A stretch of 64,000 bases of DNA. Origin: Demequina activiva (GTDB lineage Bacteria; Actinomycetota; Actinomycetes; Actinomycetales; Demequinaceae). Both the position numbers and the translations under genes were made by a program. The notes under the pieces were generated by a model, which worked only from the letters and a program-made list of their open reading frames with translations, made no database searches and had not been told where the DNA came from. The stretch is taken from NCBI RefSeq assembly GCF_016862815.1, contig NZ_BONR01000001.1:806001-870000 (forward strand), in the 5' to 3' direction. Shown here in pieces: positions 55,030 to 63,769 of the stretch. The stretch's first letter is position 1. Each line of letters opens with the position of its first letter.

Positions 55030-55423
55030 CCGCTCTGCCCCCTCCTCACGCACCACCACTGTGTCGCTCACAGCTGTGGATAAACCTGTGAATTGCCGTG
55101 GACAGAGGGCTCATCCACAGGGACGGAGCTGTGGGCAATCGTGGACGGGCTGTGCATGACACGGCCTCGTCCACGGGCACCCTGGTCGAATCACACGTTC
55201 CGTCCCGAGCTTTCTCACAGGCAAGAGTGGGGAAATAGCAGGAACTCTTGTGGTTCTCCCCAGTTTCCACGGTGCCTATGACGACTACCTACTCTTGTCA
55301 TTCAGCATCAAGCCCGATGGACCTTCATGACGTTTCGACCTCGATCAGGCGCTGGCGCGCCAACGCCCTTCCGCTGCCGTGGCGTTGGCGTAGTCTGTGC
55401 GACAGAACCTGAGGAGCAGTTCC
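55030..55423. other. oriC candidate, dnaA-dnaN intergenic region (394 bp)
   Basis: DnaA-box-like sequences run from 55075 to about 55175: TGTGGATAA (55075-55083, complement of TTATCCACA), CGTGGACAG, TCATCCACA (55111-55119), TGTGGGCAA (55130-55138), CGTGGACGG. A somewhat AT-richer stretch follows (about 55225-55330). This is the standard actinobacterial oriC position. Confidence 0.8.
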
Positions 55424-56551
55424 ATGAAATTCACCGTCGATCGCGACGTGCTGGCTGACGCCGTCGCATGGACCTCGCGCGCCGTCCCGGCGCGCCCGCC
55501 CGTTCCCGTCCTCGCCGGAGTGCGCATCACGGCGCAGTCCTCGGGGGAGGTGGCGCTGGCCAGCTTCGACTACGAGGTCTCCGCTCGAGGCACCTTCTCC
55601 GCTGACGTGGACCAGGCCGGCGAGGTGCTCGTCTCGGGCCGTCTTCTCAAGGAGATCGCGAACGCCCTGCCGCACAAGCCCGTGGACTTCGCACTCGAGG
55701 GAACCAAGGTGTCCGTCACGTGCGGTGCGTCGCGCTTCACCCTGGCGACCATGCCCGTCGATCAGTACCCCGCGCTCCCGGAGCTGCCGGCCCAGTCCGG
55801 CACCATCGACGGGTCCGAGTTCCAGCGCGCCGTCGGTCAGGTGACGGTCGCGGCCTCGCGCGACGAGACCCTTCCCATCCTCACCGGCGTGAGGATGGAG
55901 ATCGAGGGCTCGAGCATCTCGCTGCTCGCCACGGACCGCTACCGGCTCGCGCTGCGTGAGCTGTCCTGGAAGCCGTCATCCTCGGACGCATCGGCCGTCG
56001 CGCTGGTGCGAGCTCGTACGCTCAACGACACCGCGAAGGCGCTGGGCGCCGGTGATGTCACCGTCGCGCTCAGCTCGGGTCAAGGCGTGGACCTGGTGGG
56101 CTTCGAGGCGGGCGGTCTCACCACCACGTCGCTGCTCATGGACGGCGACTATCCGCAGGTGCGTCGGCTGTTCCCGGAGGAGAGCCCCGTCACGGCCGTG
56201 GTGAAGACAACGGAGCTCATCGAGGCCACGCGCCGCGTGTCCCTGGTCGCGGAGCGCAACTCGTCGGTGCGACTGGCGTTCTCCGAGGGTGAGCTCACGC
56301 TCGACGCCGGCCAGAGCGACGATGCCCAGGCGTCCGAGGCCATCGAGTGCGTGCTGAACGGTGACGCGATCACCGTCGCCTTCAACCCGCAGTACCTGCT
56401 CGACGGCCTCGGCGCGTTGTCGAGCGAGTACGTGCAGCTGGGCTTCACGCAGGAGACCAAGCCGGTCGAGTTCGTGGGGATCGACAAGCCCGGCGGCGAT
56501 GTGGTGGCCGACTTCCGCTACCTGCTGGTGCCCATCCGCATCCAGTCCTAG
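55424..56551 (+). CDS. dnaN: DNA polymerase III beta sliding clamp
   Basis: 375 residues with three repeated clamp domains. It starts MKFTVDRDVLADAVAW after GAGGAG and ends VADFRYLLVPIRIQS, the usual C-terminus (PMRI/PIRI). It tethers the polymerase to DNA. It lies 8 bp before recF. Confidence 0.97.
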   Translation: MKFTVDRDVLADAVAWTSRAVPARPPVPVLAGVRITAQSSGEVALASFDYEVSARGTFSADVDQAGEVLVSGRLLKEIANALPHKPVDFALEGTKVSVTCGASRFTLATMPVDQYPALPELPAQSGTIDGSEFQRAVGQVTVAASRDETLPILTGVRMEIEGSSISLLATDRYRLALRELSWKPSSSDASAVALVRARTLNDTAKALGAGDVTVALSSGQGVDLVGFEAGGLTTTSLLMDGDYPQVRRLFPEESPVTAVVKTTELIEATRRVSLVAERNSSVRLAFSEGELTLDAGQSDDAQASEAIECVLNGDAITVAFNPQYLLDGLGALSSEYVQLGFTQETKPVEFVGIDKPGGDVVADFRYLLVPIRIQS

Positions 56552-56559
56552 TCCGGCCG

Positions 56560-57714
56560 ATGCGCGTCACCCACCTGCATCTGGTCGACTTCCGCTCGTA
56601 CTCCGATCAAGAGATCGAGTTCGGGCCCAGGGTCACCACCCTTGTGGGGCGCAACGGTCAGGGCAAGACCAACGTGGTCGAGGCCGTCCGGTACCTGTCG
56701 ACGCTGTCCTCGCACCGCGTCGCGGCAGACGCCCCGCTCATCAGGCAGGGAGCAGAGCGGGCGGTGGTGCGCGCGCGGGTCGAGAAGTCCGGCCGCTCCC
56801 TGGCGATCGAGGTCTCGCTCAACCCTGGCAAGGCCAACACCGCACGCATCGGACGTTCCGCTGCCAAGCCTCGCGACCTGCTGGGCGCGCTGCGCACGGT
56901 GGTCTTCGCTCCGGAGGACCTCGCTCTGGTCAAGGGCGACCCGGCCGGAAGGCGGTCGTTCATGGACGAGCTGTGCGTCGCGTTGCAGCCCGCGCTCGCC
57001 GGCGACCTCGCGGACTACGACCGCGTGCTGCGCCAGCGATCCTCGATGATCAAGACCGCGAAGAACGCCCGCGGCGACCTCACGATGCTCGACATCTGGG
57101 ACGAGAAGCTGGCCGGACTGGGAGGCCGCCTGCTCGCCGCCCGACTGCGCGCGGTGCGGGCTCTCGGACCGCATGTGACCGAGGCCTACGCGGCCGTCGC
57201 CCCGGACGGCGGCGAATGCTCGGTGTCGTATGCGACGTCGCTGAGCTCGCACGAGGAGTGGGACGAGACGGCCGATGCGGCGGCGCTGTCGATGATGATG
57301 CTTGAGCGCTTGCAGGAGGTCAGGCCCAAGGAGCTCGACCGCGGCGTGACGCTGGCCGGACCTCACCGCGACGACCTCGACATCCACCTGGGAACGATGC
57401 CCGCCAAGGGGTATGCCAGCCACGGCGAGTCGTGGTCGTGCGCACTCGCGCTGCGACTGGGCACGTATGCGCTGCTCACCGACGAGGGCGGTCCGGATGG
57501 CGACGAGGACGGCGAGCCCGTGCTGATCCTGGACGATGTGTTCGCGGAGCTCGACTCAGGACGGCGCGCGGCTCTGGTCGAGCGCCTCGCGGACGCGAGC
57601 CAGGTGCTCATCACGGCAGCGGTCGCCGAGGACGTCCCGGAGGCGCTGCGCGGAAGGGTGCTCGTGGTGGCAGATGGCCAGGTCACGGGAGGCGAGGGCG
57701 GCGCGGATGACTGA
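56560..57714 (+). CDS. recF: DNA recombination/repair protein RecF
   Basis: 384 residues, SMC-like ATPase. Walker A GRNGQGKTN is near residue 32; the signature region LAGPHRDDLDI and the Walker B LILDDVFAELDSGRR are in the C-terminal half. It helps load RecA at gaps. The start codon lies inside a 9-mer copy (56555-56563). It overlaps the DUF721 gene by 8 bp. Confidence 0.96.
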   Translation: MRVTHLHLVDFRSYSDQEIEFGPRVTTLVGRNGQGKTNVVEAVRYLSTLSSHRVAADAPLIRQGAERAVVRARVEKSGRSLAIEVSLNPGKANTARIGRSAAKPRDLLGALRTVVFAPEDLALVKGDPAGRRSFMDELCVALQPALAGDLADYDRVLRQRSSMIKTAKNARGDLTMLDIWDEKLAGLGGRLLAARLRAVRALGPHVTEAYAAVAPDGGECSVSYATSLSSHEEWDETADAAALSMMMLERLQEVRPKELDRGVTLAGPHRDDLDIHLGTMPAKGYASHGESWSCALALRLGTYALLTDEGGPDGDEDGEPVLILDDVFAELDSGRRAALVERLADASQVLITAAVAEDVPEALRGRVLVVADGQVTGGEGGADD

Positions 57715-58225
57715 CGACGAGCCCACTCGCTCAGCGCAGGACCTCGCGCGTGAGGCGATGGAGCGAGCCCGCGCATCGGCCCGTCAGCGCGGCGCCTCCC
57801 GGACCACGCCCAAGGCCGGTCGCCGCCAGCGCGAGGACAAGCGACGTCAGTCGCAGCCGTACTCGAACGGGCGCGATCCCGCGGCGATGTCGGAGGCGGT
57901 CGACGCGCTTCTGCGGCGCATGGGCTGGACCGAGCAGATCGAGGTCTCGGGCGTCACCGGCCGTTGGCGCGAGGTCGTGGGCGACCAGATCGCGGATCAC
58001 TGCGAGCCGGTCACCTTCGAGGAGGGCGTCCTCACCGTCAAGGCGAGCTCCACCGCGTGGGCGACGCAGCTGCGCATCATGTCCGGACAGATCCGCCACC
58101 GCATCAACGAGGAGTTCGGACGGGACATCGTGCGCGAGCTCACGGTGCTGGGCCCCACCGCGCGCACCTGGCAGCGCGGCCAACGACGGGTGCCCGGTCG
58201 AGGTCCGCGGGACACCTATGGGTGA
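57707..58225 (+). CDS. DUF721 (DciA-like) protein
   Basis: 172 residues. An N-terminal basic, disordered part of about 60 residues, then the DUF721 KH-like core (LLRRMGWTEQIEVSGVTGRWREVVGDQIADHCEP). Members include DciA, the helicase operator or loader that acts with DnaB in bacteria lacking DnaC. Its position between recF and gyrB is conserved in actinobacteria. It overlaps recF by 8 bp and the next gene by 8 bp. Confidence 0.85.
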   Translation: MTDDEPTRSAQDLAREAMERARASARQRGASRTTPKAGRRQREDKRRQSQPYSNGRDPAAMSEAVDALLRRMGWTEQIEVSGVTGRWREVVGDQIADHCEPVTFEEGVLTVKASSTAWATQLRIMSGQIRHRINEEFGRDIVRELTVLGPTARTWQRGQRRVPGRGPRDTYG

Positions 58226-59015
58226 CGCGGTGTGGGTCGAGGGAGCTCAGATCGCGAGGGGAGCCACGGCGGTCGTCACGTACGGCGCTCCGGGAACTGT
58301 CGTGAAGACGTTGCTGCCGGGAGTGCCGAGCATCGTGGTGACTCTGGAGGCAGACGCTCTCCGCGCTGCTCGAACCGGCGGACTCCCCGTCCCCGAGCTG
58401 CTCGGCACGGATGTCGAGGGGCAGCCGCCGTCCCTCACTCTCGCCTACGTCGATGGTCCCGAGCTCGGGACGATGCTGGAGACCCGTGGTGCGGAATGGA
58501 TCGGACGAGAGCTCGCGGAGATTCAGCATCAGATCCGTAGCGTGAAGGCGCCACCGCCACTCATCGGACTCCAGACGTACCTGCTCGAGGTGATTGCCCG
58601 AGGGCCACTGGACGGGCGCGTGCGCCACGCAGTGCTCGATCGCATCTCCGCCCTTCCGGGTGGCACCGCGTTGTGCCACCTCGACCTCCACCCTCGCAAT
58701 GTGATCTGGAACGGCACATCGACGGTGATCGACTGGAACAACGGCTCCCGCGGTGACCCCGCTGCCGACGTCGCACGCACGCGACTCCTGCTCCGATCGA
58801 TCATCCACTTCCTCCCGCGTCGCGAACGCAGCCACATGCGTCCCATCCTCATCGACGCGGAGACGTCCTTCGCCGCGGCGACGGAACGGCTCGCTCCCGG
58901 ACTTCTGGATGCCTCTCGCGCGTGGGAACCCGTGATCGCCGCGATGCGCTGGGGCGAGAGCCCCCCGGCTGCCGAGCGCCGCAGTCTCGAGCCCATTCTG
59001 GAGCAGATTCTCTGA
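58218..59015 (+). CDS. Phosphotransferase-family (APH-like) protein inserted before gyrB
   Basis: 265 residues. The catalytic loop CHLDLHPRNVIW has the H-x-D-x4-N form and VIDWNN the metal-binding D, so kinase activity is plausible. The N-terminal lobe has VVKTLLP with the ATP-binding Lys. The likely substrates are small hydroxylated compounds; aminoglycoside resistance cannot be inferred. It overlaps DUF721 by 8 bp, so it is part of the recF operon; the insertion between DUF721 and gyrB is unusual. ATG 58218 is the first codon of the homologous region. Confidence 0.75.
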   Translation: MGDAVWVEGAQIARGATAVVTYGAPGTVVKTLLPGVPSIVVTLEADALRAARTGGLPVPELLGTDVEGQPPSLTLAYVDGPELGTMLETRGAEWIGRELAEIQHQIRSVKAPPPLIGLQTYLLEVIARGPLDGRVRHAVLDRISALPGGTALCHLDLHPRNVIWNGTSTVIDWNNGSRGDPAADVARTRLLLRSIIHFLPRRERSHMRPILIDAETSFAAATERLAPGLLDASRAWEPVIAAMRWGESPPAAERRSLEPILEQIL

Positions 59016-59086
59016 CGGCTGCGAGCGCACCCGACGGTTTCTCCCCAAATACCCCTGAATCGCGCCAGATCGGCCCTAGAACCGAC

Positions 59087-59092
59087 TAGAAT
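59087..59092 (+). promoter_or_regulatory. Possible -10 box for gyrB-gyrA
   Basis: TAGAAT, 59 nt upstream of GTG 59152, in the 136-bp gap after the phosphotransferase gene. No convincing -35 at 16-18 bp. Confidence 0.4.
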
Positions 59093-59139
59093 GACGTGCA
59101 GTACACCGCGTCCCGTCCGAGGCCGCGAGAGTCCCGTGA

Positions 59140-63769
<4,630 letters not shown>

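Follow-up and report, generated by a model that had tools for sequence, protein, structure and literature searches.

Genes for replication proteins in Actinobacteria keep a cluster order, dnaN–recF–dciA–gyrB, that is usually taken as fixed, which raises the question of why a gene of the aminoglycoside phosphotransferase (APH) family lies inside this cluster in Demequina activiva. The window analyzed here, a 64,000-nucleotide stretch of that genome, displays the gene order dnaA–dnaN–recF–dciA–APH–gyrB–gyrA. The initial annotation had described an intact APH-like gene that overlaps the DUF721 gene by 8 bp, lies before gyrB and interrupts a dnaN–recF–DUF721–gyrB order; the order with the APH gene in place holds in the window, and the open reading frame (ORF), PF01636 and PF05258 agree with the rest of the description. 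We consider it probable that the gene encodes an accessory APH-fold small-molecule O-kinase, coupled to dciA in a minority of Demequina species, lost or swapped in a variable slot and evolving with a raised dN/dS.

All features of the cluster described below lie on the forward strand (+). The ORFs at 55418..56551 (with an alternative upstream GTG start at 55397), 56560..57714, 59152..61155 and 61124..63769 correspond to what we take to be dnaN, recF, gyrB and gyrA, respectively. The name recF presumably holds given the gene order and matches among relatives, gyrB also has matches among relatives, and the gyrA coordinates use the ORF start, the true start possibly lying a few codons later. The dciA (DUF721) gene (57707..58225) matches PF05258 with an E-value of 2.6e-25. 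The kinase gene (58218..59015), delineated by its ORF, Pfam match, alignments and a structure model, is an intact frame of 265 codons (265 aa) with an ATG start and a TGA stop. Its ATG lies 8 bp inside the dciA 3′ end, yielding the 8-bp overlap, and its 3′ end is separated by 136 bp from the gyrB start. An in-frame GTG at 58230 is an alternative start that matches the N-termini of homologues and with which the kinase would not overlap dciA.

The dciA stop codon is overlapped by the kinase start codon in 7/7 intact Demequina copies, by 8 bp in the window and by 4 bp (ATGA or GTGA) in the six others. Judging from these start/stop overlaps, the kinase is apparently coupled to dciA: it would be co-transcribed with dnaN–recF–dciA, its translation being coupled to the dciA stop codon on the shared transcript, and we infer co-expression with the replication genes. 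Downstream of the kinase and before gyrB, a stretch with a putative promoter-like function (59075..59151), designated from its position and conservation, contains a TAGAAT motif found 64–66 bp upstream of gyrB in 42/42 Demequina genomes whose examined stretch includes gyrB, which suggests that the likely gyrB promoter is retained downstream of any insert. The overlaps and the downstream TAGAAT fit the operon-resident half of the metabolite kinase proposed in the initial annotation; its other half, the metabolite as substrate, we retain as plausible.

The kinase frame is open in seven of the eight Demequina copies detected. In the eighth, from D. litorisediminis (G060), the kinase is split over two aligned pieces; dnaN, recF, dciA, kinase, gyrB and gyrA of this genome (L198/L076) are each split into several aligned pieces, which indicates an assembly or sequencing error rather than gene decay. 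Likewise, dnaN, recF and dciA each fall in two aligned pieces in G009 (L197), where the kinase frame is open, indicating a sequencing error in that assembly rather than gene decay. A chance ORF is excluded by the homologues found at the same site in seven other genomes and by the visible purifying selection described below.

A search of 59 genomes with the single sequence and one of 44 Demequina genomes with a profile gave a strong kinase match (3e-71 or better with the profile) in eight genomes, 8/44 of those from Demequina: that of the window, G009, G011, G019, G031, G033, G036 and G060. The next-best match in the genus (G018, 9.7e-19) lies on another contig than the G018 dciA gene. As dciA was found in 43/44 genomes (G006 has no dciA match and was left out of site counts), the synteny check called for by the initial annotation gives a kinase directly after dciA in 8/43 genomes, comprising 8/8 carriers, and none at this place in the remaining 35. 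A gyrB match lies downstream of dciA in 42/43, and the kinase is absent from 34 of these 42.

The Demequina dciA–gyrB interval is a variable slot that is empty or holds the kinase, another ORF or both. Among the 43 loci (L156–L198), 25 have short gaps of 140–361 bp, eight carry the kinase (followed by a further ORF in G011 and G019), nine contain an insert of ~1.1–2.0 kb without kinase and one (G032) shows no gyrB match in the stretch examined. Four of the non-kinase slot ORFs, which occur in 11 genomes (the nine without kinase, G011 and G019), were scanned for families. Those of G034 and G022 match DUF4190 below the cut-off, that of G061 (L167) contains a triple Lipoprotein_Ltp repeat (3.7e-54) and that of G011 has no family match. 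Ltp is a phage-exclusion lipoprotein. The slot ORF of G002 (L182) resembles the G061 Ltp-repeat ORF by appearance. By our reading, the non-kinase slot ORFs would be membrane-anchored or secreted.

The gyrase genes beyond the slot appear to be mosaic in the window strain. Sixty positions separate two Demequina gyrase types (each represented by 17 reference genomes picked on the gyrB–gyrA tree), all within gyrB 435–642 and gyrA 25–508, and the window strain has the type 2 residue at 51/60 and the type 1 residue at 6/60 of them. Trees of dnaN–recF–dciA (support 99, starred) and of gyrB 1–360 (support 87, not starred) place the window with type 1 strains, and the type 1 grouping is not rejected for gyrA 491–end (p = 0.478). 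The block between gyrB 1–360 and gyrA 491–end rejects the type 1 grouping, with a lnL difference of 282 (p-AU = 1.5e-35). The gyrase core is ~80% identical between types (G031 versus G022), near the level to other families. These quick trees are consistent with the replacement by recombination of ~2.4 kb of the window gyrase core; the mosaic block spans ~60232–62645 (gyrB codons 361–end and gyrA codons 1–508). At GyrA position 93 (window numbering), which we take to be E. coli S83, glycine is present in 4/20 type 1-core strains (L157 (G031), L159 (G029), L181 (G012) and L197 (G009)) and serine in the other 16; serine is also the residue of 17/17 type 2 strains and of the window.

One alternative explanation builds on this plasticity: the dciA–gyrB interval would be a cassette slot in which lineages, recombining via the conserved dciA and gyrB flanks, swap between no insert, the kinase, a membrane or lipoprotein gene (in some cases of Ltp type) and both genes together, the gyrase core would have been exchanged too, and the kinase would share a defence or surface function with the ORFs that replace it. 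A common slot does not imply a common function, and we consider this reading unlikely. In our preferred reading of an accessory small-molecule kinase, the slot that separates dciA from the gyrB promoter would have seen several losses of the gene, or swaps of it among lineages, possibly through exchange via the conserved flanks.

The product belongs to the APH family by its PF01636 score (E = 1.3e-15, 58.3 bits versus a cut-off of 23.2). The 7/7 Demequina copies in the alignment (which is without G060) show no variation in K30, E44 or the H-x-D-L-H-x-x-N and I-D-W motifs, bearing out the earlier claim that the catalytic residues are intact. Residues E44, H154, D156, N161 and D172 are invariant in 31/31 homologues, and K30 is conserved in at least 90% (alignment without L090, L093, L106, L113 and L145). 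From the APH fold we take HxDxxxxN to be the catalytic loop and assign the metal-binding aspartate and the ATP lysine. With these presumed roles, ATP would be held between the lobes via K30 and E44, D156 would act as the catalytic base, N161 and D172 would hold magnesium and the helical C-lobe would bind a small molecule whose hydroxyl is phosphorylated. The enzyme is probably an O-kinase that uses ATP and acts on a small hydroxylated molecule.

An APH/choline-kinase fold is well supported by the AlphaFold2 model of the window protein (pLDDT 96.7, pTM 0.92). The model matches the 50 structural entries listed with Z-scores of 16.7–19.9, including APH, choline, MTR and homoserine kinases; entries within 1 Z unit count as tied, and further families may be present among PDB rows beyond those listed. 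The best scores are to APH(3′)-VIII (4h05; Z = 19.9, 3.3 Å r.m.s.d. over 227 residues, same fold at 18% identity), APH(3′)-Ia (4few; Z = 19.6, 3.2 Å r.m.s.d. over 220 residues, same fold at 16% identity), Rv3168 (19.5), PsiK (19.1) and the LicA choline kinase (4r7b; 18.8), which shares the fold. The first Foldseek rows are Cph001 (1.4e-8) and methylthioribose kinase (1.5e-8). In structure, the model is about as close to APH(3′) as to choline kinase and to further small-molecule kinases.

A resistance gene encoding an aminoglycoside or other antibiotic phosphotransferase would agree with the APH fold, with the leading Z-scores to two APH(3′) enzymes, with Cph001 (a viomycin/capreomycin-type kinase by names) as the top Foldseek row and with a wider-family profile search that ranks aminoglycoside kinases first. 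The structural scores of metabolite kinases are nearly as high, though, and no family model reaches its cut-off in an NCBIfam scan of the window protein: viomycin Vph scores 14.9 versus 400, capreomycin Cph scores 14.1 versus 390 and the APH(3′) model is not among the six families listed (E ≤ 1). Only 5/72,556 plasmid records matched the kinase, none above 33% identity, and the close clade is limited to one genus and one site. Literature searches combining aminoglycoside phosphotransferase with Demequina, or with recF, gyrB and dnaN, found no reports. We regard a resistance function as very unlikely, and our data do not show the kinase to be a known antibiotic-resistance gene.

At the loci inspected outside Demequina, no kinase was found at the site. 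A dciA search of 69 genomes of the order matched 66, and among the 25 non-Demequina loci inspected, from other families of the order, 0/25 had a kinase match at dciA (gyrB being outside the stretch in five); gyrB starts 220–941 bp after dciA in the other 20. Together with the 34 of 42 Demequina genomes that do not carry it, this disposes of the possibility, named in the initial annotation as a refutation, that all Micrococcales have the gene at this site as members of a known family. In samples of 396 genomes of the order and 394 of the class, which include Demequina and the window genome, profile searches scored six candidates per genome, so that weaker relatives may be missed; they returned non-Demequina matches in 7/396 order genomes (E ≤ 1e-12) and 1/394 class genomes (E ≤ 1e-15), none of these eight loci having dciA or gyrB within ~1.5 kb. 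Among 80 named loci with a kinase relative, only six from Demequina have dciA or gyrB nearby, and the stretches examined at the 74 non-Demequina loci contain no match to dciA, gyrB or gyrA. The wider relatives share 22–42% identity with the window protein by tblastn, over the full length or ~residues 9–192, and their hosts include Bacillota, Chloroflexota, Alphaproteobacteria, Acidimicrobiia and others. TIGR02172 is matched by 25/31 aligned members (E ≤ 1e-3), the window protein not being among those tabled. Clustering by BLASTP the ORFs of at least 80 aa around 77 distant homologues revealed no informative neighborhood: kinase aside, the largest shared group (13/77 loci, ABC-transporter-like by reading) is too common to inform on substrate, and the other groups comprise at most six loci, some being plainly antisense ORFs.

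The eight Demequina kinases form one clade relative to 28 other homologues (support 100/100; the tree covers 28 of the 74 named loci from outside Demequina and leaves out L090 and L113). They share 35–79% identity, the window copy being 41–52% identical to the other seven, and the products of the flanking dnaN, recF, dciA, gyrB and gyrA genes in the same strains are 68–91% identical to those of the window. The window kinase groups with G060 (97/88) in the tree including other homologues and with G060 and G036 (100/99) in a tree of the eight kinases alone, and its grouping with G031/G033 is rejected (AU p = 0.0012). The dnaN–recF–dciA tree described above places the window with G031, G033, G029, G034 and G014, and gyrB 1–360 yields the same grouping. 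The kinase grouping differs from that of the flanks, indicating a partly separate history, either by exchange within the genus or because old variants were lost differentially. On the flank trees, kinase presence requires at least six changes (the G021 slot, with a 1.1-kb insert and an ORF, was scored as empty in this count, leaving the kinase counts unaffected), and the presence pattern is barely more clustered than chance (50/500 shuffles as low), so gain and loss are indistinguishable. These trees describe replication-cluster genes rather than a whole-genome species tree; the flank tree has gappy rows for G018 and G032, the upstream tree is without G007, the downstream and core trees are without G018 and G032, and the segment trees are without G007, G018, G032 and G060.

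The second proposal of the initial annotation, a recent insertion, considered here as horizontal entry into the replication operon, draws on the codon use that it had suggested comparing with the neighbors: GC3 is 0.774 for the kinase versus 0.87–0.95 in dnaA, dnaN, recF, dciA, gyrB and gyrA, a hint that the recent past of the window copy differs from theirs. The absence of the kinase from the near flank-tree relatives G029, G014 and G034, and its discordant tree position, point the same way. These observations are outweighed by the presence of a homologue at the site in seven other species, six of which show the same kind of overlap, and by the 41–52% identity to the window copy, which indicates long residence in the genus. 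We give recent insertion little credence: arrival from outside the genus is largely refuted, and an in-genus allele swap at the site is possible and forms part of our preferred explanation. As judged from these sequence comparisons, the kinase is an old genus resident that has been patchily kept or swapped.

We attach equally little weight to a protein kinase of the Bud32/PRPK type with a replication protein, for instance DciA, as its target, which the gene overlap with dciA, a weak match to the Bud32/KEOPS model TIGR03724 (6.8e-5, 22.4 bits) and a Z-score of 17.3 to human PRPK would suggest. The Bud32 cut-off is 125 bits, the listed small-molecule kinases align over 217–259 residues versus 182–183 for PRPK, and dciA is retained in the 35 genomes without a kinase after it.

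The gene could also be a decaying, near-neutral remnant, as its patchiness, the G060 copy in two pieces and its substitution rates might suggest. The kinase dN/dS is 0.218 (G011–G019) and 0.315 (G031–G033), approximately 3 to 8 times the flanking-gene values of 0.03–0.09 in these two pairs (the flank range covers five genes in G011–G019 and, with gyrA left out, four in G031–G033). Both kinase values are nevertheless well below 1, the catalytic residues are invariant in the seven aligned copies, seven of eight frames are open and the G060 flanking genes are split too, as expected of an assembly error. These dN/dS values indicate a functional, weakly constrained kinase and leave a remnant scarcely probable, although such a patchy distribution and elevated dN/dS are also compatible with a dispensable gene that is being lost.

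Least likely of all is that the kinase serves in defence or in modifying the cell surface, as one of a set of accessory genes that replace one another in the slot: this reading is motivated by the other slot ORFs, by the Ltp repeats in one of the four scanned and by a distant homologue from Niallia (L082) that matches PD-T4-6 kinase models (best 9.4e-7), but in the PADLOC 2023 library neither the window protein nor L077 and L078 matched any family (E ≤ 1), and a phage collection yielded three weak partial matches. In the same scan, L083 matched only MkoA (0.087). The L082 match suggests that a kinase of another kind may be conceivable for the wider family.

Our analysis describes an ordinary, genus-restricted and fast-evolving enzyme of a well-known fold in a mildly interesting place. 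A cluster usually regarded as fixed has an accessory-gene slot in one actinobacterial genus, and the finding cautions against taking any APH-like gene next to gyrB for a newly inserted resistance gene. Assigning the substrate would resolve one of the many APH-fold kinases that lack one.

Compared with known systems, the window protein shares the score, catalytic motifs and fold of PF01636, which is a broad family and uninformative on substrate. Its similarity to ThiK (TIGR02721) is confined to a catalytic-loop match over residues 148–187, with 23.5 bits versus a cut-off of 299.45. The wider APH subfamily is related to the window protein by tblastn but is devoid of replication-gene neighbors, and the Demequina kinases form their own clade on a long branch relative to it. 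A parallel for a metabolic passenger in the replication region is found in Mycobacterium smegmatis, where MSMEG_0002 (a predicted 6-phosphogluconate dehydrogenase) lies in the oriC region, its M. tuberculosis counterpart being located elsewhere (PMC5720831). MSMEG_0002 is thereby a metabolic gene within this replication region, as the Demequina kinase would be, but it encodes another enzyme and occupies another position in the cluster.
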